DNA of 64,000 nt from Idiomarinaceae bacterium HL-53 (GTDB lineage Bacteria > Pseudomonadota > Gammaproteobacteria > Enterobacterales > Alteromonadaceae). Position 1 is the first letter of the stretch, and each line of letters opens with the position of its first letter. Below are positions 3,221-47,109 of the stretch, one piece after another. A model generated the notes under the pieces. That model searched no databases. It was not told where the DNA came from and worked only from the letters and a program-made list of their open reading frames with translations. A program made the translations under genes and the position numbers. The stretch spans positions 2,206,659-2,270,658 of the forward strand of contig LN899469.1 of assembly GCA_001458075.1 (NCBI GenBank), read 5' to 3'.

Positions 3221-4876
<1,656 letters not shown>

Positions 4877-4956
4877 TCAGGGTGAATGTTAAAACGGAAA
4901 AGTAATTTAAGACGGGAAAACAGTATACCCGAGCATCGCGCACTCAACAATGTTTC

Positions 4957-5850
4957 TTAATCGGATTTTGTCGCTTCTTTCGCCTCACGCCAGAATTTTT
5001 CTAGTTGCTCGAGGCTATAGTTGGCAAAGCTTCCCTGTTGTCGCTTTACAACCTCTTCAACATATTCAAAGCGGCGCATAAACTTCGCATTTGCCTTTTG
5101 CAACGCCGTTTCAGGGTTCACTTTCGCGTGCCGAGCAAGGTTCACCACGGCAAATAACAAATCGCCAATTTCCTCTTCTACATGAGCTTGCTGCTTGTGT
5201 TCAGGTTGCGAGTTCTTTTGACAGCACTCGAACTCGGCAAGCGCCTCACGAACTTCGACTGTTTCTTCTTCAACCTTTGCTAGAACGTCGGCGGATGAGT
5301 GCCAGTCAAAACCGACATTAGCGCAGCGTTTCTGTATTTTCAGTGCTCTTAGCACAGCAGGAAGATTCCCTGGTACGTCTGCAAATACACTAGCACGCGC
5401 TTGTTTTGCCTCGCGCTCCTGCTGCTTGATACGCTCCCAGTTATCTTTCACTTCGGCCACTGAGTTGACCTTTTGATCGGCAAATACGTGGGGATGTCGG
5501 CGAATTAACTTTTCTGCGGTAGTGCTCGCTATCTCATCGAAACTAAAATCTCCCTGCTCTTGTGCAAGTTGCGCGTAAAATATGACCTGAAATAGGAGAT
5601 CTCCTAATTCACTCTGAATTGCCTCTGCGTCGGCTTCTGCAATTGCAGCTGCTACCTCATAGGCTTTTTCAATTGTATAAGGCGTCAAACTCGCTGGCGT
5701 CTGTTGCAAGTCCCACGGACAACCTTGCAGTGGATGACGAAGACAACGCATAACCGCTAACAAACGCTCTAAACCCGTCTGTTTGGGGTTCACTGCGACA
5801 TTCTTTTGCGTCTCAAAATCAGTGTGTGTTGCGTTGTACATTGACGACAT
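4957..5850 (-). CDS. mazG: nucleoside triphosphate pyrophosphohydrolase MazG
   Basis: MazG hydrolyses NTPs and dNTPs to monophosphates, and in E. coli it modulates ppGpp-linked stress responses. The 297-residue product has two MazG domains. The C-terminal one keeps the EEETVE and EEIGDLLFAVVN acidic metal-binding motifs. The N-terminal one has EKAYE where EExxE is expected, so a Glu is replaced by Lys, consistent with the N-terminal half being the less active one in the family. The protein carries about 25 extra residues before the conserved ERLLAVMRCLRHP region. The start overlaps the end of relA by 32 bases, and a GTG at the AVNPK position is a possible later start. Confidence 0.94.
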   Translation of the reverse strand: MSSMYNATHTDFETQKNVAVNPKQTGLERLLAVMRCLRHPLQGCPWDLQQTPASLTPYTIEKAYEVAAAIAEADAEAIQSELGDLLFQVIFYAQLAQEQGDFSFDEIASTTAEKLIRRHPHVFADQKVNSVAEVKDNWERIKQQEREAKQARASVFADVPGNLPAVLRALKIQKRCANVGFDWHSSADVLAKVEEETVEVREALAEFECCQKNSQPEHKQQAHVEEEIGDLLFAVVNLARHAKVNPETALQKANAKFMRRFEYVEEVVKRQQGSFANYSLEQLEKFWREAKEATKSD

Positions 5851-8002
5851 GAGATACCTGCTGAATCTTACCTATTAATCTCTGTACGTCTTCTTGATGA
5901 CGCACGCTGACAGACAAAGACACAAATACTTGACCGTTGTTGTCATGTGTCGTACTGACTTGCTCCACGTTTAACTTCTCATGGCTCAGTAAGCTCGTAA
6001 TATCGTGCAAAAGCCCGGAGCGATCGAGTGCGGTAATTCTCAAAGAGACCGAAAAGCTTTGCTGCGTTTCGCCAACCCATTCCACGTCGATGCCTCGACC
6101 TGGATGCTTATCGAGTAATTGATGCAGCTGTTCACAGTCTCGACGATGCACTGACACGCCCCGCCCTTGGGTTACAAACCCCTCAATATCGTCTCCCGGG
6201 AGCGGCTGACAACACTTTGCGAAATTCATCATAAGGTTACCAATGCCTGCAACCTGAACACCTTCTTTCGACTTGCGCTTCGTCGGTGTTTTTTTCCGTT
6301 GCGCAAGTTTACTGAGTGCTTCTTCTTCATCTTCTGGTGCAATGGTCAAGAAATTCACCACCTGATAGAGGCGCACGTCACCCGCACCAATTGCAACCAA
6401 CAAATCATCAAGCGAGGTCATATTGAACTTTGTAATCGCTTCTTGGGCGTCAGGTAGGGCTTTTCCATGTTTCGCCAGCGCATGCTCAAGCTGCTCTTTG
6501 CCCTGAGCTAAATACTGCTCACGATCATGTTTCTTGAAATACGTGTGAACTTTGCTTCGAGCTCGACTGGAATGCAGATAGCCCAGTGCCGGGTTCATCC
6601 AGTCGCGTTTTGGTTGAGGCTCTTTTTGCGTTAATATCTCGACGCGTTCCGCATTTTGTAAACGGTAAGTAAATGGCACAATGCGCCCATCTACTTTTGC
6701 GCCAATGCACCGATGCCCTACTTGGCTGTGTATGTAGTAAGCAAAATCAAGTGGCGTTGAGCCGGCCGGTAAATCGATCACGTCACCCTTGGGCGTAAAC
6801 ACATAAACGCGATCTTCGAACACCTGACTACGAATTTCTTGCACAAGCTCTTCATTCTCAGCCATGTCCTCATGCCAAGCGAGTAACTTACGCAACCACG
6901 CGATTTTTTCCTCATACCCTTGAGCTTTGCCGGTCGTTTGACCCTCCTTGTAAAGCCAATGCGCAGCAACACCCAATTCAGCATCGTCATGCATATCCGC
7001 GCTACGAATTTGTATCTCAATGACTTTTTGTTCAGGCCCGACAACCACAGTGTGAATCGACTGGTAACCGTTTGCTTTCGGGGTTGCAATGTAATCGTCA
7101 AACTCGCTCGCCAAATGCCGCCATTTCGTGTGTACAACACCAAGTGCGGCATAACAATCCTTTAGATTATGCGTGATAACACGAACCGCACGGATATCAA
7201 ACAGTTCGTCAAATTGCAGATTCTTCTTCTGCATTTTTTTGTAGATACTGAAGATATGCTTCGGACGACCATACACTTCTGCTTTCACGTCGTTTGCTAA
7301 AAGTGCTTGCTGTAAGTCAGTCACAAACTGGTAAATGTATTTCTCTCGCTGCGTTCGTTTTTCATCAAGCTGCTTTGCGATCTGTTGATAAACATCTGGA
7401 TGTAAGTAGCGAAACGCGAGGTCTTCCAGTTCCCACTTCAACTGTCCAATCCCTAAACGGTTCGCTAGGGGTGCATAGATTTCACTGCATTCTTTAGCGG
7501 TGAGTACGCGCTCTTCTTCATCGCCACTCTTCACCACGCGTAACTGACAAATACGCTCCGCCAGTTTGATTAAAACAGCTCGCACGTCTTCTACCATTGC
7601 TAACAACATGCGACGCACGACATCGATTTGTGTCTCGCTTGGCTTGCCTCTGCGGAAATGCTGCAGTTCAGAGATGCTCTGCATTTGATGAACTGTCAGC
7701 ACAAGCTTTACGATTTCAGGCTTACACAGTTTGCCGAGTGTCTCTTCGTTTACAATCCCTGCGTCAAAGTACGGCACACAGAGCGCCGCCAGCAACCCAT
7801 CAGTTTCGAGTTTCAAATCACTGAGAATTAGCACCATTTCACGAGCTTTAAAACAGGTTTCATGTGCTTTGGGTGAAAGTTCAGTAAGCTTTTGATCGAG
7901 CACAGTCAACGCTTCTCGCGTCTCCGGTACGTCAATCATGGCTTGCCAGTCAACTGCGGTGTCTGACACCTTGTCGACATGCAAATCTCTCACCTGCACC
8001 AT
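5819..8002 (-). CDS. relA: GTP pyrophosphokinase RelA ((p)ppGpp synthetase I)
   Basis: RelA makes (p)ppGpp from ATP and GTP or GDP on stalled ribosomes. The 727-residue protein has the full layout: a degenerate N-terminal HD domain without the HD pair, the synthetase domain (about 220-370, with YGRPKHIFSIYKKMQKKN and TPKANGYQSIHTVV), a TGS domain (about 395-460, VYVFTPKGDVIDLPAGSTPLDFAY), the zinc-finger/helical region with CCQPLPGD, and a C-terminal ACT domain. The missing HD residues identify RelA rather than SpoT. It has a GAGGTG ribosome binding site and is followed by the overlapping mazG, the same pairing as in E. coli. Confidence 0.97.
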   Translation of the reverse strand: MVQVRDLHVDKVSDTAVDWQAMIDVPETREALTVLDQKLTELSPKAHETCFKAREMVLILSDLKLETDGLLAALCVPYFDAGIVNEETLGKLCKPEIVKLVLTVHQMQSISELQHFRRGKPSETQIDVVRRMLLAMVEDVRAVLIKLAERICQLRVVKSGDEEERVLTAKECSEIYAPLANRLGIGQLKWELEDLAFRYLHPDVYQQIAKQLDEKRTQREKYIYQFVTDLQQALLANDVKAEVYGRPKHIFSIYKKMQKKNLQFDELFDIRAVRVITHNLKDCYAALGVVHTKWRHLASEFDDYIATPKANGYQSIHTVVVGPEQKVIEIQIRSADMHDDAELGVAAHWLYKEGQTTGKAQGYEEKIAWLRKLLAWHEDMAENEELVQEIRSQVFEDRVYVFTPKGDVIDLPAGSTPLDFAYYIHSQVGHRCIGAKVDGRIVPFTYRLQNAERVEILTQKEPQPKRDWMNPALGYLHSSRARSKVHTYFKKHDREQYLAQGKEQLEHALAKHGKALPDAQEAITKFNMTSLDDLLVAIGAGDVRLYQVVNFLTIAPEDEEEALSKLAQRKKTPTKRKSKEGVQVAGIGNLMMNFAKCCQPLPGDDIEGFVTQGRGVSVHRRDCEQLHQLLDKHPGRGIDVEWVGETQQSFSVSLRITALDRSGLLHDITSLLSHEKLNVEQVSTTHDNNGQVFVSLSVSVRHQEDVQRLIGKIQQVSHVVNVQRNTH

Positions 8003-38959: not shown

Positions 38960-40876
38960 TCAAACCGGGTTATCAGGCATAATTACAATCAATTGTGTGC
39001 TCGGACCACAGAATACATGTTCCTGCGTTTCTGGATTCAACCGCACTTGTTGACCATCTGGGTTGACACCAATCAAAACGCCGCCTTCAGCGATGACATA
39101 TTGTTGAAGTTCTGCGACCGCCATTGGACGATGCATCGATTCGGGCACATAACGTATACTCAAATGAGCACCTAAACTCGATAGTAAATGATCATAAACA
39201 GACCGAATCGGTGGGTACAGAGCAACTTGTGCGAGCACATGACTAATCACCACGGCACTCACAATCACGTCGCTATTAGCGTGATTCACATAAACTTCAT
39301 TACTTTGATCATGCAGTTCTATTAAAACGTGGGGGCGTTCGGCCTGCGCTGGTAATTTGTTTAACAAATAATCAAGCACCATTAAACCTACCACAGTGCG
39401 CGCGTCGGCTTCTTCGCCGGTACCGACCCGATCACTACTAAACAACATAATGTTGTCAAATTGCTCAAGACGATATTTCTTTAGCACACTCATATCCGTG
39501 TAATCACCCTGCACAAACTCGAGTGTACCTGGCCAATTGCTTGGAAGTGCACGTTCCAATTTCGCTTTGCGTTCTTCCACAGCAGAGGTACTAATCATTG
39601 TCACTCGATAGTGGCTCTCAGGCTCCATTCCAAGTTCTTTTAAGAGCAGCGGTACACTCTGGTTCCAACCCAGAATAAGAATCTGTTTACGTACTTTTGC
39701 AGCACCTGTTAGCAAACGCTCCGTATGTTTAGAAGGCACATAGCGGCGAGGCTTACTCAGCGGTGTTTTGCTGTCTGACTGTGCTGCGAGAATTAGAATT
39801 TGGTCGCCGGCTTGAATCACTTCGTTGGCAGGGGGTGCAAGCATTGTTTTGTTTCTGTCATGTTCCTTGCGGACAATTCCACAAGGTGTCACTTCCTCAA
39901 AGTAACCAAACACTTCCCGCCATGTCTTGCCTTCAAATTGTGAAAACTGCATCGGAATGATCTGCGATTGGTCACTATCGAGCAAAATGGCATTCACTGT
40001 ACTTGCTAAGCCAGGATATAGCGCACTGCGCGCTAAAATTCTCGCCACCATTAAGTCGCCTGGAACAATCTGCAGCGGGCCATTGTAAGCATGCAGTGCC
40101 ACCGGAATCTTGCCTCCATCACTAAGTTCGGCAACCACTGCTGGTTTTTCATCCAAATGCGCTGTTTGCGCGTCCAGCGATACTAGAATTTTAATCACAT
40201 TCGCGTCATTCGATACCGAACTATCGGCATCGTTCCGACGCGAAGGAATAATGACCGTGCGCGCATTAGCGATCGCGACTCGGTGCAAATGTTCTGGGTT
40301 TAAGATTGAGCCTGAACGCAAAACAACACGCCGATGCGTCCATGTACTCCAACGCTCAGCGAGCAAGTCATTCACTGGGCCTTCTGTAATGTCTTCTGCA
40401 AGAGCAGCAATACGACTTCCCTCGCCGCGCTTAGGGCTAAACGTAAGTAATTCACGAATCACGGGTAACGTACGAGAGTTCCAGCCCAAAATAACATGAT
40501 GTTCCTTGAAGGTGACTGGCGTTTGTCCTTGCTCCAAGTTACGCATATTACGGAACAACCATTGGGTCATAATCGCTACCAGTGTACCCATAAATAATAC
40601 GTAACCAGACAGGGTAAGCATCGTTGAAATAACTCGACGCCAAAGCCCTTGGTCATCACCGAGATAACCGGGATCCGTGAGCCTTAAAAACGACCACCAA
40701 ACTTCGTCGGTCAACCGATATTCACTCGGTACAACCCAATAGGCCAACAAACCACCGCTCACTGCCACTAACAGTACAATCAAGGCGACAAAAAGAAGCT
40801 GGGCCACAGCGCCGCCACTGAGCATGCGCTCTGCGTAATATTTCAGTCGATCGATGAAGCGAAGTTTGAAGATCAT
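38960..40876 (-). CDS. CASTOR/POLLUX-like ion channel with RCK domains
   Basis: The 638-residue protein resembles the bacterial relatives of plant CASTOR/POLLUX nuclear cation channels. It has membrane segments near residues 24-50 and 86-110 around a pore-like loop WWSFLRLTDPGYLG, then two TrkA-N/RCK-like nucleotide-binding parts (HHVILGWNSRTLPVIREL and KQILILGWNQSVPLLLKEL). A short TrkA-C-like end follows. The function is probably regulated potassium or other cation flux; ion selectivity is not evident. It lies just upstream of the suf promoter and downstream of the Sel1 gene, with 16 bases between. Confidence 0.85.
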   Translation of the reverse strand: MIFKLRFIDRLKYYAERMLSGGAVAQLLFVALIVLLVAVSGGLLAYWVVPSEYRLTDEVWWSFLRLTDPGYLGDDQGLWRRVISTMLTLSGYVLFMGTLVAIMTQWLFRNMRNLEQGQTPVTFKEHHVILGWNSRTLPVIRELLTFSPKRGEGSRIAALAEDITEGPVNDLLAERWSTWTHRRVVLRSGSILNPEHLHRVAIANARTVIIPSRRNDADSSVSNDANVIKILVSLDAQTAHLDEKPAVVAELSDGGKIPVALHAYNGPLQIVPGDLMVARILARSALYPGLASTVNAILLDSDQSQIIPMQFSQFEGKTWREVFGYFEEVTPCGIVRKEHDRNKTMLAPPANEVIQAGDQILILAAQSDSKTPLSKPRRYVPSKHTERLLTGAAKVRKQILILGWNQSVPLLLKELGMEPESHYRVTMISTSAVEERKAKLERALPSNWPGTLEFVQGDYTDMSVLKKYRLEQFDNIMLFSSDRVGTGEEADARTVVGLMVLDYLLNKLPAQAERPHVLIELHDQSNEVYVNHANSDVIVSAVVISHVLAQVALYPPIRSVYDHLLSSLGAHLSIRYVPESMHRPMAVAELQQYVIAEGGVLIGVNPDGQQVRLNPETQEHVFCGPSTQLIVIMPDNPV

Positions 40877-40892
40877 GCCTACTTTATGCTCA

Positions 40893-43121
40893 CTACTCTT
40901 GAATTAAACTTTGATTCGACATGGCACCTTCGTGCCCCTGTGCGGCAGCCTCGGCAAACCAAAATGCGGCTTGCTCCATCGATGTCTCGACTCCTAGACC
41001 ATTGTAATAAAGAAGGCCTAACAAGTTTTGTGCGTTTGCGTGACCTGCATTTGCCGCTTGCTCGTAAAGAGATTTAGCCCTCGCATAATCTTGCGTGACT
41101 CCTCGACCCAATTCATACAGTAAGCCGAGATTGGCCTGCGCGCTTAAATTTTCTTGCTCGGCGGCTAGCGTATAATAATGAGCCGCCTGTTCAGCATCTT
41201 CAGGTACACCAAAACCATTGTCGTACATGAAGCCCAAGTTCATCTGAGCAAGCTCATTTCCTTGCTCAGCCGCTTTCTCATACCAAATAACCGCTTCTCG
41301 ATCCGATTGTTCAACACCGATCCCAGCTCGGTAAAGCAAGCCTAGATTTGCTTGTGCTGCTGCATTCCCCTGATCTGCAGACAAGCGATACCATCTCGCA
41401 GCCTCGGTATAAGACTGCGTTACGCCGAGACCCTCTTCGTATAGCAAACCGAGTGCATTTTGCGACCAGCTATCGCCCGCCTCTGCAGCCGGCGTATACC
41501 AACGCGCGGCTTCAACGTAGGATTGCTCAACGCCATCCCCTAGCTCATAAAGTTCGCCCAAGCTACCTTGTGCAGAGACATTGCCGGCCTCCGCCGCTTG
41601 GCGTAACCAATAGAATGCTTCCTCGGCATCACGTTCGGTGCCTAAACCTCGTCGGTATAGCAGACCCACACTATATTGGCCTCCCGTATTACCTTGTTGC
41701 GCAGACGCCAAATAAAGACCAAATGCCCGCTCTAAATCTTGAGTAACACCTAATCCCTGTTCATACATGTGCGCCAAACTTGCTTGTGCATTTGCATTAT
41801 TTTGCTCTGCAGCGAGCTCATACCAGCGCACTGCTTCCTCATTAGATGCTTCTACGCCACGACCGAATTGATACAACACACCTAAATTATTTTGCGCAGG
41901 AGCGAAGCCTGCAGTTGCAGCGCGGCGGTACCAGCGCTCCGCTTGATCATACGATTGCTCAACACCGAGTCCTTGCTCATACAGTGTGCCGAGGAAGTTT
42001 TGCGCGCTCGCGTTGTCACTATCGGCTGCAAATCGAAAATAGTGTGCCGCTTGCTCAAAGTCTTGCAGAACACCACGGCCCGTTTGGTATAAAAACGCAA
42101 GATTTACCTGCGCGTTACTATCACCTTGCTCGGCCGCTCGTTGCAGCCAAACAAACGCTTCGCTGTCAGACTGATCAATACCTGCGCCTTCAAGATACAT
42201 GGCACCTAAATTCGATTGCGCCCGCACTTGACCTTGTGCGGCGGCCTGCTGGAACCAATGCACTGCATCGACTGCCGAAAGCTCCACGCCCTCACCATAG
42301 CGAAACAGCTCACCGAGCCTATTCTGTGCATGCGGATTACCTTGCTCAGCCGACAAGCGATACCATCGAAATGCATCACGTTTCGAAGCATCGACCCCCA
42401 ATCCGTAGTCGTACAAACGGGCTAGATTCATTTGCGCATCAATATGGTCCTGTTCTGCCGCAGCCCGATACCAACGATAAGCTTCCGCATATGAGCGTTC
42501 AACGCCTCGACCTTTTTCCAGCATAAAGCCAAGGTTCGCTTGCGAACTAGCCATTCCTGCTTCGGCACCTACTTGATACCACTTCACTGCCTCATCATCA
42601 GATTGCGGCACACCTCGACCGTAGTCATACATCACCGCTAAATTATGCGCTGCCCAGGCATTGCCTTGTTCCGCTGCCGCCAAATACCATTTTGCAGCTT
42701 CACTGTCTGATTGAGACACGCCTCGACCTGTTCGATACAAATAGCCCAATGTGGCCTGGGAATTTACTTCCCCCTGCTCCGCAGCGAGCTGCAGGTATTG
42801 AGCTGCCTGAGCGTCGTCTTTCGGAACGCCTGCACCATTAAAATGGAGTTGGCCTAAATTAGCTTGCGCGTACACATACCCCTGTTCGGCGGCCAATTTG
42901 TACCATGTAACTGCTTGCGTGTAGTCTTGTGGAACACGCGTACCATTTTGATAGCTCACCGCTAAATAATATTGCGCATGAACATTCCCTGAATCTGCTA
43001 TTTCAGTAATTTCCTCAATGCTAAGGTCATCAAATGCACTTGCACTAAAACATGAAATGAACGCCAGAATGGCTAAACACCGAACGCACCATGTTCGAAA
43101 AGTTGAAAAAGAAAGCCTCAC
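40893..43121 (-). CDS. exported protein of 19 tandem Sel1 repeats
   Basis: The 742-residue protein has a signal peptide (about 1-29, ending SASA) and then nothing but Sel1 repeats of the form AQxxLGxLYxxGxGVxxsxxEAxxWYxxAAEQG. I count 19 full repeats of exactly 36 residues from residue 45 to 728 with no insertion or deletion, plus a truncated twentieth. Sel1 solenoids bind protein partners; the target is unknown. The start is GTG with AAGGAG five bases upstream. The repeat array dictates a periodic 108-base pattern in DNA. Confidence 0.92.
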   Translation of the reverse strand: MRLSFSTFRTWCVRCLAILAFISCFSASAFDDLSIEEITEIADSGNVHAQYYLAVSYQNGTRVPQDYTQAVTWYKLAAEQGYVYAQANLGQLHFNGAGVPKDDAQAAQYLQLAAEQGEVNSQATLGYLYRTGRGVSQSDSEAAKWYLAAAEQGNAWAAHNLAVMYDYGRGVPQSDDEAVKWYQVGAEAGMASSQANLGFMLEKGRGVERSYAEAYRWYRAAAEQDHIDAQMNLARLYDYGLGVDASKRDAFRWYRLSAEQGNPHAQNRLGELFRYGEGVELSAVDAVHWFQQAAAQGQVRAQSNLGAMYLEGAGIDQSDSEAFVWLQRAAEQGDSNAQVNLAFLYQTGRGVLQDFEQAAHYFRFAADSDNASAQNFLGTLYEQGLGVEQSYDQAERWYRRAATAGFAPAQNNLGVLYQFGRGVEASNEEAVRWYELAAEQNNANAQASLAHMYEQGLGVTQDLERAFGLYLASAQQGNTGGQYSVGLLYRRGLGTERDAEEAFYWLRQAAEAGNVSAQGSLGELYELGDGVEQSYVEAARWYTPAAEAGDSWSQNALGLLYEEGLGVTQSYTEAARWYRLSADQGNAAAQANLGLLYRAGIGVEQSDREAVIWYEKAAEQGNELAQMNLGFMYDNGFGVPEDAEQAAHYYTLAAEQENLSAQANLGLLYELGRGVTQDYARAKSLYEQAANAGHANAQNLLGLLYYNGLGVETSMEQAAFWFAEAAAQGHEGAMSNQSLIQE

Positions 43122-43217: not shown

Positions 43218-43649
43218 ATGAAGCCAAAGGTTGCCCAGAAAATTATGTTAATTTCTGCTCTGTTAATCGGTATTACTATTTTTGCCGCATGGTGGACTTG
43301 GGTGAGTCCTTATAACTTCACCTACTCGGAAACGACACTCACACTGGAGCCAGAGGCAGAGCATCGCGTATTCGTTTTCGGCACCTTGAAAAACCCGATC
43401 ATTCGGTCATTCATTATGCGTACTTATGCGCCTACAGAGCGAGCTCTGTTGCCCGGCTATCAAAAGACGAAACTAGATTTAAAACCCAACGCCGAAGCGA
43501 ATACTGAAGGTGTCGTATTTTACGCGACCTCCGCCCAACTAAGACGACTTGATCGCTATGAGCGCGTCGGCGTAAAGTATGAGCGTTACTGTTATACACT
43601 CGCAAATGGAGACGAAGCCTGGGTTTATCGGCTAATCAGTCATGAATAA
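43218..43649 (+). CDS. membrane-anchored gamma-glutamylcyclotransferase-like protein
   Basis: From the ATG at 43218 the protein has 143 residues: a membrane segment (about 10-29) and an AIG2/GGCT-like domain starting RVFVFGTLKNPIIRSFI and continuing with LPGYQKTKLD, EGVVFYATSAQLRRLDRYE and YERYCYTL. This family cyclises gamma-glutamyl amines to 5-oxoproline or acts on related isopeptides. The frame is open 29 codons further upstream to a point 10 bases from the Sel1 start. It overlaps the amidoligase gene by eight bases, so the two likely act together. Confidence 0.8.
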   Translation: MKPKVAQKIMLISALLIGITIFAAWWTWVSPYNFTYSETTLTLEPEAEHRVFVFGTLKNPIIRSFIMRTYAPTERALLPGYQKTKLDLKPNAEANTEGVVFYATSAQLRRLDRYERVGVKYERYCYTLANGDEAWVYRLISHE

Positions 43650-44637
43650 ACTACTATCTGTTCCAAAAATGAAGACCGCCCAAGGTAATTTACGTAAAGT
43701 GGGCGTCGAGATTGAGTTTGGTAATCTTACATTAGAAGAAGCCGCTCAATGCCTTCGCGAATTTATAGCGAATTCTTGCGGGCAATCCACCCAAAAAACT
43801 ACAGGCCGATATGAGCTTGAGATTGAGGGTGATAAAGCCGGTGTGTGGAAAATTGAACTCGATTACGGCTACTTAAAAAAGCTTGGAAGAGAAAAGTTAG
43901 TAACGGAATGGGAAGAAGCCTTAGAAAAGGGATTGGCATGGGTCGCTGAGCAAGTGGTTCCTATCGAAATTATATCCCCTCCTCTCAATATTGAGCGCCT
44001 TCCTGATCTGGAGTCTTTGCTTTCAAACCTGCGTGCTCTCGGTGCCGAAGGTTCATCAAAAGAGCCTCACTACGCATTTGGGCTACAATTAAATCCCGAG
44101 CTCCCTGAACTCACGAGTGCATGCATCTTAAAATATCTCCGTGCATTTTTCTGTTTGAGTGAGTGGTTGGTTGCCGACAACGATACCGACTGGTCGAGGA
44201 AGTTAACTTCTTTCGCAGCCCCCTTCCCCAGTGAATATGAGGAAGTGCTCCTCGACCCCGGTTACTCCCCAAGCCTAGACGAGCTTATTCAAGACTATCT
44301 AGCGACGAATCCAACACGTAACCGAGCGCTTGATTTACTTCCGCTATTTAAGGAGTTATCCCCTGAGTTAGTGACCAAAGCAGTGAATGATGAACGCATT
44401 AAAGCGCGTCCTACCTTTCATTATCGTTTACCCAGTTGTGAGATCCATCGCGAAGATTGGGGCTTGTTCTCAGTCTGGAACCCTTGGGCTCATGTAGAGC
44501 GACTTGCAGAAAATGAAGAGCTACTTGCGGCAACGATGACTACCAAAAGGAGATATCGGAGCGAAACCATTTACTTTAATAAGGAGAAGTGGATTGACTA
44601 TGTGCTGTCAGAAGTGCTCGCAAACCTTGAAAATTAG
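43642..44637 (+). CDS. amidoligase family protein
   Basis: The 331-residue protein matches the amidoligase (COOH-NH2 ligase, glutamine synthetase-like) fold: KVGVEIEFGNLTLEEAA at about 19-35, GVWKIELDYGYL with the conserved W and D near 67-78, and VPIEIISPPLNIERLPDLE near 106-124, then a YAFGLQLNPEL strand. These enzymes form amide or isopeptide bonds with ATP. Its pairing with a GGCT-like protein suggests gamma-glutamyl or related amide chemistry on a metabolite or envelope component. The 3-prime end overlaps the convergent cyclase gene by four bases. The substrate is unknown. Confidence 0.8.
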   Translation: MNKLLSVPKMKTAQGNLRKVGVEIEFGNLTLEEAAQCLREFIANSCGQSTQKTTGRYELEIEGDKAGVWKIELDYGYLKKLGREKLVTEWEEALEKGLAWVAEQVVPIEIISPPLNIERLPDLESLLSNLRALGAEGSSKEPHYAFGLQLNPELPELTSACILKYLRAFFCLSEWLVADNDTDWSRKLTSFAAPFPSEYEEVLLDPGYSPSLDELIQDYLATNPTRNRALDLLPLFKELSPELVTKAVNDERIKARPTFHYRLPSCEIHREDWGLFSVWNPWAHVERLAENEELLAATMTTKRRYRSETIYFNKEKWIDYVLSEVLANLEN

Positions 44638-46298
44638 TCTTCATCCCCCGCGTGCACTGTATACAAAACATACCGCCCCTTACCCTCTCGTTTAGCCTGA
44701 TAAAGCGCGGCATCGGCATTTTTCAAGATTTGTTGCGCGTCTTTTCCTTGATACGGCCACCAAGCTGCGCCCACACTCCCACCAACTTTTGCTTCAACTT
44801 TCTCACCCGCATTCACAGGCCGTGACACTTCCTCAATAATTCGTCCGCCCAACCCTTTCATTAATGGTTCGACTTCTCCACCGCCAGCTTTTACTACCAT
44901 GACAAATTCATCACCACCGACACGCGCGACAACATCACCGGCACGCACGACATTCTTTAGCCTAGTTGCCACACGTTTCAACAGCAAATCGCCAGCATGG
45001 TGACCCAACTTATCATTCACCTCTTTGAAACCGTCAAAGTCGATAAACATCACCCCAATCGCTAGGTTGGCTCGCTCCGCCTCTGGAATCGCATGGCTCA
45101 AATACTCATCTAAGAAGGCACGATTCGGAAGCCCCGTAAGTGGGTCTGTGTGAACAATATCCTCGAGATCATCAATCTCTTGTCGTTGCATTTGTAAGCG
45201 CTTTAAGAGTTGATTAAGTGACTGCGACAGATTCGATAGCTCAGGCGAAGCATTCTCGTTCGGGACATCGACCTTACCCGTAAGGGATTTAATTGCATCA
45301 GCCGCCTTGGCTAAACGAATCAAAGGCGCAGAAAAACGCGCCGAGAAAAACCAACCGATACTTCCAAATATCACCACCAAAAGTAGACCGAGGGTAGCAA
45401 TACGTTGTTGCAATGTTGTGACCGGCTCAAACGCCGCGGAAACGGGCACGCGAGCGATGATTGTCCACCCCAACCCTGAATACTCACCGGTTCCCTCCGT
45501 CGGTACAATGCCGGTAAGATATTTGCCATCTTGCCATTGTTGAATGTCCCAGTTTCTTCGGTTGAGGCGGGTAGCAGAAGCAAGTGTGACCAATTCACTC
45601 AAAGGCTTACCAATCGCAGTTTCTGCTCCCAATAATACGGTTTGGTTTTGTGCAATAACGAAGAATTCAATTGGATAATTATCGTTCCGAGCGGCATCGA
45701 ACACTCGTTGCATAATGTTCTCAGCCCACTCCCAACTTAAATGCATCGCGAGTACCGCGTGCAATTCACCGTCGCCCCGAAAAACGGGTGCGGCCACATC
45801 GACAAACTTAATCGGTTCGCCAGAGGGATTCGGTAATAAGGTTGCCAAGAGCTCAGGTTCATGTACATCACCTACCCACAAACCTCGACGACCGAATCGA
45901 TATACCGGCCGATGAGAAATATTGGCGCCTTCCAAAATACCGCCTGTACCCACGCGCACCACGCCCTCTGCATCTAAAAAGCCGATCCAAGAAGCCACAC
46001 TATATTGGTCCTGAATTTGCTCTAATTGAGAGCGAATCACCGCTTCGCTTAATGTTTGATTAGCACTATAAACATTCGTGAGCAGCAACACTTCTTGCAC
46101 ACGTGCAGACATGTTCTGATCAAGCTGTTGAGCCATATGCTCAGCACGTTCAAGGACAGACCGAGCAATGGACGCTCGAATATACTCTGACGACAACTGA
46201 TAAACGAGCGCTCCTAACAGCACCACAGCACCTGCCACCAACGCCACAATGAGCAGGGTAAACCGAGTCTTGAGCGATATTCGCTTATTCACGCTCAT
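44634..46298 (-). CDS. diguanylate cyclase with periplasmic Cache-like sensor
   Basis: The protein makes cyclic di-GMP from GTP. From the ATG at 46298 it has 554 residues: a membrane segment (about 13-35), a periplasmic Cache-type sensor (about 40-270), a second membrane segment (about 277-297), a HAMP-like linker, and a C-terminal GGDEF domain with active-site VGGDEFVMV. The inhibitory site RAGD lies five residues before GGDEF, so product inhibition is expected. Its start overlaps the upstream potassium-channel gene by 14 bases. Confidence 0.93.
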   Translation of the reverse strand: MSVNKRISLKTRFTLLIVALVAGAVVLLGALVYQLSSEYIRASIARSVLERAEHMAQQLDQNMSARVQEVLLLTNVYSANQTLSEAVIRSQLEQIQDQYSVASWIGFLDAEGVVRVGTGGILEGANISHRPVYRFGRRGLWVGDVHEPELLATLLPNPSGEPIKFVDVAAPVFRGDGELHAVLAMHLSWEWAENIMQRVFDAARNDNYPIEFFVIAQNQTVLLGAETAIGKPLSELVTLASATRLNRRNWDIQQWQDGKYLTGIVPTEGTGEYSGLGWTIIARVPVSAAFEPVTTLQQRIATLGLLLVVIFGSIGWFFSARFSAPLIRLAKAADAIKSLTGKVDVPNENASPELSNLSQSLNQLLKRLQMQRQEIDDLEDIVHTDPLTGLPNRAFLDEYLSHAIPEAERANLAIGVMFIDFDGFKEVNDKLGHHAGDLLLKRVATRLKNVVRAGDVVARVGGDEFVMVVKAGGGEVEPLMKGLGGRIIEEVSRPVNAGEKVEAKVGGSVGAAWWPYQGKDAQQILKNADAALYQAKREGKGRYVLYTVHAGDED

Positions 46299-47109
46299 GT
46301 GGGGCACCTTGATGTGCAGAGAGTTTTTTTATGTATAAATCACGCTCGGCGCGCTGTTGTTCAGTTAAGCCCTTGGTCGTTTGATAGGCGTCGCTAAACG
46401 CTGACGCCATAATCCCGGTAGGCATCGCAATCATGCCGATACCCGCAATCGCAGTCAGGCCGGCAAACAGTTTGCCAAAACCCGTAAGGGGCGTGACATC
46501 ACCGTAACCAACCGTGGTAAGCGTTGCGATAGCCCACCACAACGCACGTGGAATACTGCCAAATGCCTCAGGTTGGTAAGGAGCCTCAAAAGCATAAAGA
46601 ACCGCACTAGAAAAAAGTAGAAGCGCGCCGGCGAAAACTAAACTGAGAACAAATTCATAGCGACGGTTGCTAATTGCATCGAAAAACGCCTGCATGGCCA
46701 GGCTGAAGCGCCCTAAACGCGCTAAGCGGAAAATACGAAGTACTCGCAGAATACGCATGAAGAATGCGTTAAAGTCGCCAAACCAAAGCACGTACGGAAC
46801 AATCGCGAGTAGGTCAATAATCGCCCAGAACGTGAACACATAACGAATTCTACCCCAGAATCCCCGATAGCGAGGATCTTCTCCGGCAGCGTATACACGC
46901 AGTACATATTCGACGGCAAAGATGATAAAAAAGACGGTTTCAAACACAAAAAAAACGGAGTGGTACGCCTCAGCGATGGGCCGCTCCGTTTCAATCACTG
47001 CCAGCGCGGAAGCCACAATAATACAAACAGCAATCACCCAATTCACGGGCGACATTCCTCTTTCCACCCAAGCGGTGGGTTCTAACTGTCTGTAGAGTGT
47101 TCCGCGCAT
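46285..47109 (-). CDS. voltage-gated potassium channel (Kv type)
   Basis: This is a six-segment Kv-type channel. The 274-residue protein has an S4-like helix RILRVLRIFRLARLGRFS with arginines every third position and the pore signature TLTTVGYGDVTPLT. Segments S1-S6 can be traced in order, followed by a short cytoplasmic tail with QQRAERDLYIKKL. It would set membrane potential or potassium efflux. The gene order channel then diguanylate cyclase with overlap suggests co-expression. ATG with AAGG upstream. Confidence 0.92.
   Translation of the reverse strand: MRGTLYRQLEPTAWVERGMSPVNWVIAVCIIVASALAVIETERPIAEAYHSVFFVFETVFFIIFAVEYVLRVYAAGEDPRYRGFWGRIRYVFTFWAIIDLLAIVPYVLWFGDFNAFFMRILRVLRIFRLARLGRFSLAMQAFFDAISNRRYEFVLSLVFAGALLLFSSAVLYAFEAPYQPEAFGSIPRALWWAIATLTTVGYGDVTPLTGFGKLFAGLTAIAGIGMIAMPTGIMASAFSDAYQTTKGLTEQQRAERDLYIKKLSAHQGAPHERE

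Follow-up and report, generated by a model that had tools for sequence, protein, structure and literature searches.

The window analyzed here is the whole 64,000-nucleotide stretch from Idiomarinaceae bacterium HL-53. Within it, an Aig2-type cyclotransferase gene adjoins an amidoligase gene on the same strand, and the two overlap by eight bases. We refer to the product of the first gene as TM-GGACT. The features of the locus are the following:

40893-43121, minus strand: Sel1 protein, upstream flank, on the strand opposite to the pair
43218..43649, plus strand: TM-GGACT, 143 aa, an N-terminal single-pass anchor followed by a GGACT/AIG2-like gamma-glutamyl cyclotransferase domain (PF06094, E 2.5e-9); start ATG at 43218, stop TAA at 43647-43649
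43242..43298, plus strand: membrane helix, residues 9-27 of TM-GGACT (mean Kyte-Doolittle hydropathy 2.08)
43377..43388, plus strand: FGTL loop, residues 54-57 of TM-GGACT (YGTL in mouse GGACT)
43560..43562, plus strand: predicted catalytic Glu115, within LDRYERVGVKYER, the equivalent of Glu82 of mouse/human GGACT and invariant in 19/19 sequences
43642..43649, plus strand: eight-base overlap of the two genes, ATGAATAA
43642..44637, plus strand: Amidoligase_2 protein, 331 aa (PF12224, E 9.6e-55); start ATG at 43642, stop TAG at 44635-44637
44634-46307, minus strand: GGDEF protein, downstream flank, on the strand opposite to the pair

Since both flanking genes are transcribed from the opposite strand, the pair can form its own two-gene unit. 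A preliminary description of this DNA had placed the pair, with its eight-base overlap, between a Sel1 protein and a signaling gene, and this is the arrangement that we found, the signaling gene being the one that encodes the GGDEF protein. The same description had noted neither an ATP-grasp nor a glutaminase partner. In agreement with this, a Pfam scan of the pair and its two flanking genes, together with a reading of the list of open reading frames, revealed no ATP-grasp gene beside the pair. The Peptidase_C26/GATase gene that characterizes the proteobacterial amidoligase-GATase operon is absent from beside the window's amidoligase, and the profile of this amidotransferase-like partner had no match anywhere in the genome at E ≤ 1e-5. 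Neither protein was matched by NCBIfam or PADLOC. A role in a defense system was set aside on the PADLOC result and a phage origin on that of PHROG, which gave no match better than E 0.17. The Sel1-repeat protein contains 19 matched stretches and a signal-like start, and its gene starts 96 bases ahead of the pair. An ion-channel-type gene is found within 3 kb on each side of the pair, both of them on the minus strand: a Castor/Pollux-RCK type protein (PF06241, PF22614) at 38960-40876 and an Ion_trans channel (PF00520) at 46285-47109.

Both family assignments made in the preliminary description were borne out by profile searches, TM-GGACT scoring 38.2 bits against PF06094 (curated cut-off 22.8) and the amidoligase 186.5 bits against PF12224 (curated cut-off 22). 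The amidoligase carries no strong hydrophobic stretch: its maximum 19-residue hydropathy is 1.32, and only 2 of 55 homologs reach 1.6. Across these 55 sequences, which were chosen by a motif demanding R18, G21, E23 and E25 (six loci without the motif were dropped), 44 positions are invariant; the same four residues are likewise invariant in 20 amidoligases that were not picked in this way. No solved structure matches the amidoligase by sequence at a meaningful E-value, and the glutamine-synthetase-like fold that it is expected to adopt is taken from the published description of the family.

For TM-GGACT, a profile built from 19 homologs matches solved AIG2/GGACT structures, the best being 2jqv (E 2.3e-9). 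The catalytic site of mouse GGACT comprises Tyr7, Gly8, Thr9, Leu10, Ile50, Glu82, Tyr88, Tyr115 and Tyr143 (PMC2954230). In the 19 aligned TM-GGACTs, the window's included, the GTL of the loop and residues E115, Y121 and Y137 are all invariant. The equivalents of Glu82 and Tyr88 were placed by a weak alignment to 1vkb (whole-chain E 0.0019), and Y137 was paired with Tyr115 from its position within the motif and not through a displayed alignment. The likeness to mammalian GGACT (A2LD1; PMC2954230, PMC7022552) consists of the GTL loop, the catalytic glutamate and two active-site tyrosines, whereas the window's protein differs in its N-terminal membrane anchor, in having Phe in place of Tyr7, and in lacking a clear counterpart of Tyr143; it stops at residue 143. 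The Phe is not peculiar to the window, as the first residue of the loop is F in 10 of the 19 rows, the window's among them, and Y in the other 9.

The Phe at this position and the short C-terminus could also mean that TM-GGACT is an inactive enzyme or serves in sensing or as a scaffold, with the ligase making a product other than a gamma-glutamyl amide. We regard this as quite improbable, because the catalytic glutamate, the GTL loop and the two tyrosines have been retained in every aligned row, and codon changes in GGACT between close species are mostly synonymous (for example, 68 synonymous versus 6 amino-acid-changing of 140).

The membrane segment is conserved as well. A hydrophobic anchor is visible in all 19 aligned rows, in 9/9 fetched loci from the taxonomic family of the window's genome (L234-L242) and, as a hydrophobic segment ahead of the GTL motif, in 30/30 loci fetched out of 80 TM-GGACT matches in one further family, f194. 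The GGACT of genome G196 has too few residues ahead of the GTL motif to hold an anchor. The helix of the window's protein is flanked by a charge of +4 on its N-side (amino end counted) and -4 on its C-side, which, by the positive-inside rule, predicts an N-in/C-out orientation. Of the 20 proteins scored, 17 had +1 to +6 on the N-side (amino end counted) and 0 to -5 on the C-side, the amino end being the sole N-side charge (+1) in 5 of these 17. Scored regardless of start, the other three (L049, L054 and L058) gave N-side charges of +3, +4 and +4 and C-side charges of -5, -2 and -5, and the 30 proteins from f194 ranged from 0 to +5 and from 0 to -4, respectively. Judged from these charges, which mostly point outward, the enzyme domain of TM-GGACT would face the periplasm. 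The earlier suggestion that the protein acts near the envelope is thereby strengthened, within what flank charges can predict.

Known GGACT enzymes are soluble, and a cytoplasmic GGACT domain would turn the pair into an ordinary gamma-glutamyl cycle with one membrane-bound enzyme, in which coupling to the cytoplasmic ligase needs no export. The five proteins whose only N-side charge is the amino end would fit this arrangement too. However, the N-side charge exceeds the C-side charge in 17/17 of the set to which these five belong and in 30/30 of the f194 proteins, and we therefore consider a cytoplasmic domain unlikely.

We found an amidoligase gene in 20 of the 58 genomes searched, the window's own included. 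Within the genus of the window's genome, the amidoligase is present in 15/17 genomes and TM-GGACT in 10/17, all 10 being among the 15; two members, G013 and G014, lack amidoligase, TM-GGACT and GATase altogether. TM-GGACT lies directly upstream of the amidoligase in the window's genome and in eight congeners. In five other congeners, the amidoligase sits between a putative lipoprotein gene, which has no Pfam match, and a Peptidase_C26/GATase gene. One more congener, G003, shows the putative lipoprotein-amidoligase order without a GATase and carries its TM-GGACT on another contig; the putative lipoprotein gene thus precedes the amidoligase in six loci of the genus (L011-L015, L019). The neighborhood analysis shows that the pairing is more than chance, as it recurs in 9 of the 15 amidoligase-bearing genomes of the genus, the window's included. 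The two partners exclude each other here: GATase profile matches at E < 1e-100 occur in 5/5 amidoligase genomes without TM-GGACT and in 0/10 genomes with it, where the best match reaches 4.6e-12. This mutual exclusion suggests that GATase and GGACT have overlapping roles in the genus. Likewise, since GATase is missing from every TM-GGACT genome of the genus, GGACT may have taken over the removal step there. Beside the TM-GGACT of G003 (L111, G003:C11) lies a gene judged by eye to be similar to the M49-like neighbor described below.

We then compared neighborhoods in the best 80 named loci out of 572 confirmed amidoligase loci. Clustering of six-frame open reading frames gave many spurious antisense clusters, and only family-matched or clear full-length reading frames were used. 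A GATase gene lies within 600 bases of the amidoligase in 62 of the 80 loci and a GGACT gene in 18, two of which (L030 and L073) have it on the opposite strand. The two partners occur together in 4 loci, against 14 expected if they were independent, and neither in 4, one of which (L089) ends just past the amidoligase. The p value of 5e-9 for this avoidance is only a guide, given the kinship among the loci: of the 14 with GGACT alone, 8 are Aliidiomarina-type. GGACT without GATase was seen in Aliidiomarina, Geobacteraceae/Desulfuromonadales, Pseudohongiella-like genomes and Thiomicrospira. An apparent GATase-amidoligase fusion in L092 was rejected as artefactual, since GC-rich DNA yields long open frames and this one lay in another frame.

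Other genes recur in these 80 loci. In 18, a gamma-glutamyltransferase gene (PF01019 checked in one locus) is encoded on the same strand, at a distance of up to 110 bases in 13 and of about 1.3-1.5 kb in 5. A BCCT-family transporter (PF02028 checked in one locus) is encoded no more than 5 kb away in 23 loci, 7 of them Aliidiomarina-type and 12 Halopseudomonas/Pseudomonas-type. A Peptidase_M49-like gene (PF03571 checked in L026 only) is close to TM-GGACT, on the other strand, in 6 (L022, L024-L028), and the putative lipoprotein gene is found in 0 of the 80. Neither the M49-like nor the putative lipoprotein gene adjoins the window's pair.

In an even sample of the class, 18 of 369 genomes carry the amidoligase, and GATase adjoins it in 17/18 class-sample loci other than the window's. 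The exception, L151 (G303:C2), is a second copy of the amidoligase, more distant (E 1e-81), beside which neither GATase nor GGACT was found. Within the same family but outside the genus, GATase adjoins the amidoligase in 19/19 loci examined, from a total of 29 amidoligase genomes. Thus, as GATase is the adjacent gene in most relatives examined, the GGACT-amidoligase arrangement of the window is a minority form. The GGACT profile matches three of the 369 class-sample genomes, namely the window's own, G420 and G196 (weak, 6e-9), all of them amidoligase-positive, and at least 15 of the 18 amidoligase genomes in this sample are without TM-GGACT.

Placed on the amidoligase tree, the GGACT-only label requires 3 to 4 changes, at least two of which are forced by well-supported branches; thus, adjacency of GGACT and amidoligase arose more than once. 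In both amidoligase trees, the GGACT-type and GATase-type ligases of the genus form two separate well-supported groups, and a single clade of all is not rejected (p-AU 0.83 and 0.19 for the two trees). The GGACTs of the genus, that of G003 included, form one group (SH-aLRT 88), and the amidoligase of G003 is GATase-type in the tree although GATase is absent from that genome. The trees do not discriminate between a partner swap in place and the acquisition of a new GGACT-amidoligase cassette by the genus.

The association extends to genomes in which the two genes are unlinked. In the 121 genomes of family f194, with TM-GGACT called at E ≤ 1e-15, TM-GGACT is present in 80 and the amidoligase in 83. 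All 80 TM-GGACT genomes hold an amidoligase, 3 genomes have the amidoligase alone and 38 have neither (Fisher 2.7e-28, or 5.6e-6 by genus, both ignoring kinship). The two genes are on different contigs in 61 of the 80 pairs and on one contig in 19; of these 19, only those of G448 and G476 are separated by less than 10 kb, the next shortest distance being 528 kb. GATase stands beside the amidoligase in 30/30 f194 loci fetched of 83, yet 80 of the 83 amidoligase genomes also hold TM-GGACT. Since GATase and GGACT occur together in f194, as in 4 of the 80 named loci, one is not a plain substitute for the other. An OsmC-like gene (PF02566 in L218) is found near the amidoligase-GATase genes in 13 of the 30 fetched f194 loci (L199 to L222). 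A channel-like membrane protein encoded divergently from the f194 amidoligase was not used, because it is a cut fragment without a Pfam match.

Among 256 genomes of the window's own family, TM-GGACT is present in 16, the amidoligase in 39 and both in 13, so that 26 of the 39 amidoligase genomes have no TM-GGACT (Fisher 1.4e-9 by genome and 0.019 by genus, kinship ignored). Six of the 16 TM-GGACT genomes belong to the window's genus, the source of the profile; outside it, 7 genomes have both genes and 3 have GGACT alone. These three, in which TM-GGACT occurs without an amidoligase match, are G636, G608 and G574 (L235, L236, L237) and belong to one genus, g365; their TM-GGACTs carry the anchor, and PF06094 was checked in L235.

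Might the adjacency be a chance neighborhood without any functional link? The unlinked genes of most f194 genomes, the solitary TM-GGACT of g365 and the many class-sample amidoligase genomes without TM-GGACT would be compatible with this, but the two genes co-occur even without linkage and their adjacency arose more than once on the amidoligase tree, which makes chance very improbable. We conclude that the pair is real, conserved and functionally linked.

What, then, could the pair do? Known members of three families, the Peptidase_C26-type GATase, GGACT and gamma-glutamyltransferase, act on gamma-glutamyl bonds. That all three keep company with the ligase is the strongest argument that a gamma-glutamyl amide is made and broken here, and gamma-glutamyl is, from the families involved, the likely type of chemistry. 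The preliminary description had spoken of uncharacterized chemistry; this was too strong with regard to the type of reaction and still applies to the substrate. We hypothesize, with about even confidence, that the pair forms a make-and-break module whose two enzymes work on a gamma-glutamyl compound from opposite sides of the inner membrane. As its family suggests, the cytoplasmic amidoligase would spend ATP on coupling an amine to the side-chain carboxylate of glutamate. The anchored GGACT, facing the periplasm, would then cyclize the gamma-glutamyl end to 5-oxoproline and free the amine, a reaction consistent with its conserved active-site residues. In the window's genus, GGACT would carry out the removal step in place of the Peptidase_C26-type enzyme. 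With the ligase inside and GGACT outside, export of the compound, or its incorporation into the envelope, would have to precede any contact with GGACT, and no gene at this locus explains the export step that the split requires. A division between compartments, with GATase inside and GGACT and gamma-glutamyltransferase outside, would fit both the exclusion in the genus and the coexistence elsewhere.

Bacterial gamma-glutamylation is known from the putrescine pathway, which uses a glutamine-synthetase-like ligase and a PuuD-type hydrolase. Most relatives examined resemble this pathway in combining a ligase with a Peptidase_C26-type enzyme. In contrast, the ligase here is of another family, no oxidizing steps were seen, and the window's genus has the cyclotransferase instead.

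The product might also never be a free metabolite. The ligase could modify a component of the envelope (a peptidoglycan peptide, a lipid or a lipoprotein) with glutamate or with an amine, and TM-GGACT would then edit this modification in the periplasm. The membrane tether and the outward-pointing charges would suit such a role, as would the putative lipoprotein gene ahead of the ligase in six loci of the genus and the M49-like gene near TM-GGACT in 6/80 loci and, on inspection by eye, in G003, whose ligase lies elsewhere. However, neither gene stands beside the window's pair, their counts in the named loci are 0/80 and 6/80, and the gamma-glutamyltransferase and GATase partners suit small gamma-glutamyl compounds equally well, so that we hold editing of the envelope to be possible but doubtful.

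If the make-and-break module exists as proposed, a gamma-glutamyl amide should accumulate without GGACT, and a mutant combined with mass spectrometry could therefore name the product. In addition, 5-oxoproline would then be formed by the tethered GGACT at the outer face of the membrane, in contrast to its ChaC relatives, which are described as cytosolic (PMC7022552).

The pair is a variant of a published association. The operon link between amidoligases and GGCT-like proteins, mentioned in the preliminary description, was in print in 2008: the excerpted text connects the amidoligase family with Aig2-type cyclotransferases in firmicutes or with an amidotransferase-like peptidase in proteobacteria (PMC2588565). 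The likeness to the account of Iyer, Burroughs and Aravind is that the same two families stand side by side; as far as that excerpt goes, the differences are that the window's cyclotransferase is gammaproteobacterial, carries a membrane anchor and occupies the position that the amidotransferase-like gene has in relatives, and that the link is here also shown by the co-occurrence of unlinked genes. Three features add to the published picture: an anchor that is conserved and flanked by charges pointing outward, the tight co-occurrence of the unlinked genes in f194 and the exclusion of GATase in the window's genus. The tethered form and its close link to the ligase look new. The excerpt of PMC2588565 makes no mention of the anchor, the replacement of the partner or unlinked co-occurrence, some of which may be found in a 2009 Mol Biosyst amidoligase paper that lies outside this comparison. 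Adjacent amidoligase and AIG2/GGACT-family genes, as in the window, are also listed in a report on the Tn6164 region of a Clostridium element, where the two are Orf22 and Orf23 (PMC3485107). The LUZ24-like phage UFV-P2 differs in that its AIG2 gene (ORF29) is not next to its amidoligase gene (ORF23) and in its extra ATP-grasp and glutamine amidotransferase genes (PMC3890496). Among the matches listed in our literature search, no title dealt with the product of a bacterial Amidoligase_2 or with a characterized bacterial PF12224 enzyme, and for a membrane or periplasmic cyclotransferase the search gave only a red-algal gene transfer title.

A more specific version of the proposed module is a membrane-divided gamma-glutamyl cycle, dismantled in the periplasm (in other species by gamma-glutamyltransferase too), that would serve salt or osmotic adaptation. 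We presume, from impression and not from a count, that most organisms among the 80 best hits are halophilic, alkaliphilic or marine, and the BCCT-family transporters near 23 of the 80 loci were counted in favor of such a role. Against it, ectoine synthase, a marker of halophiles, is only weakly enriched, with a match over the cut-off in 5/18 amidoligase genomes versus 47/351 others (one-sided p 0.09, not significant), and this salt-related cycle is best treated as speculative and rather unlikely. The distance between an ectoine-synthase-like gene and the amidoligase is 3 kb in G227; the remaining four genomes that carry the two have them on separate contigs or more than 1 Mb apart. At locus L147 of G227 (4858-6274, G227:C33), the genes close to the amidoligase-GATase pair include an ectoine-synthase match and a Glu_cyclase_2 gene (PF05096).
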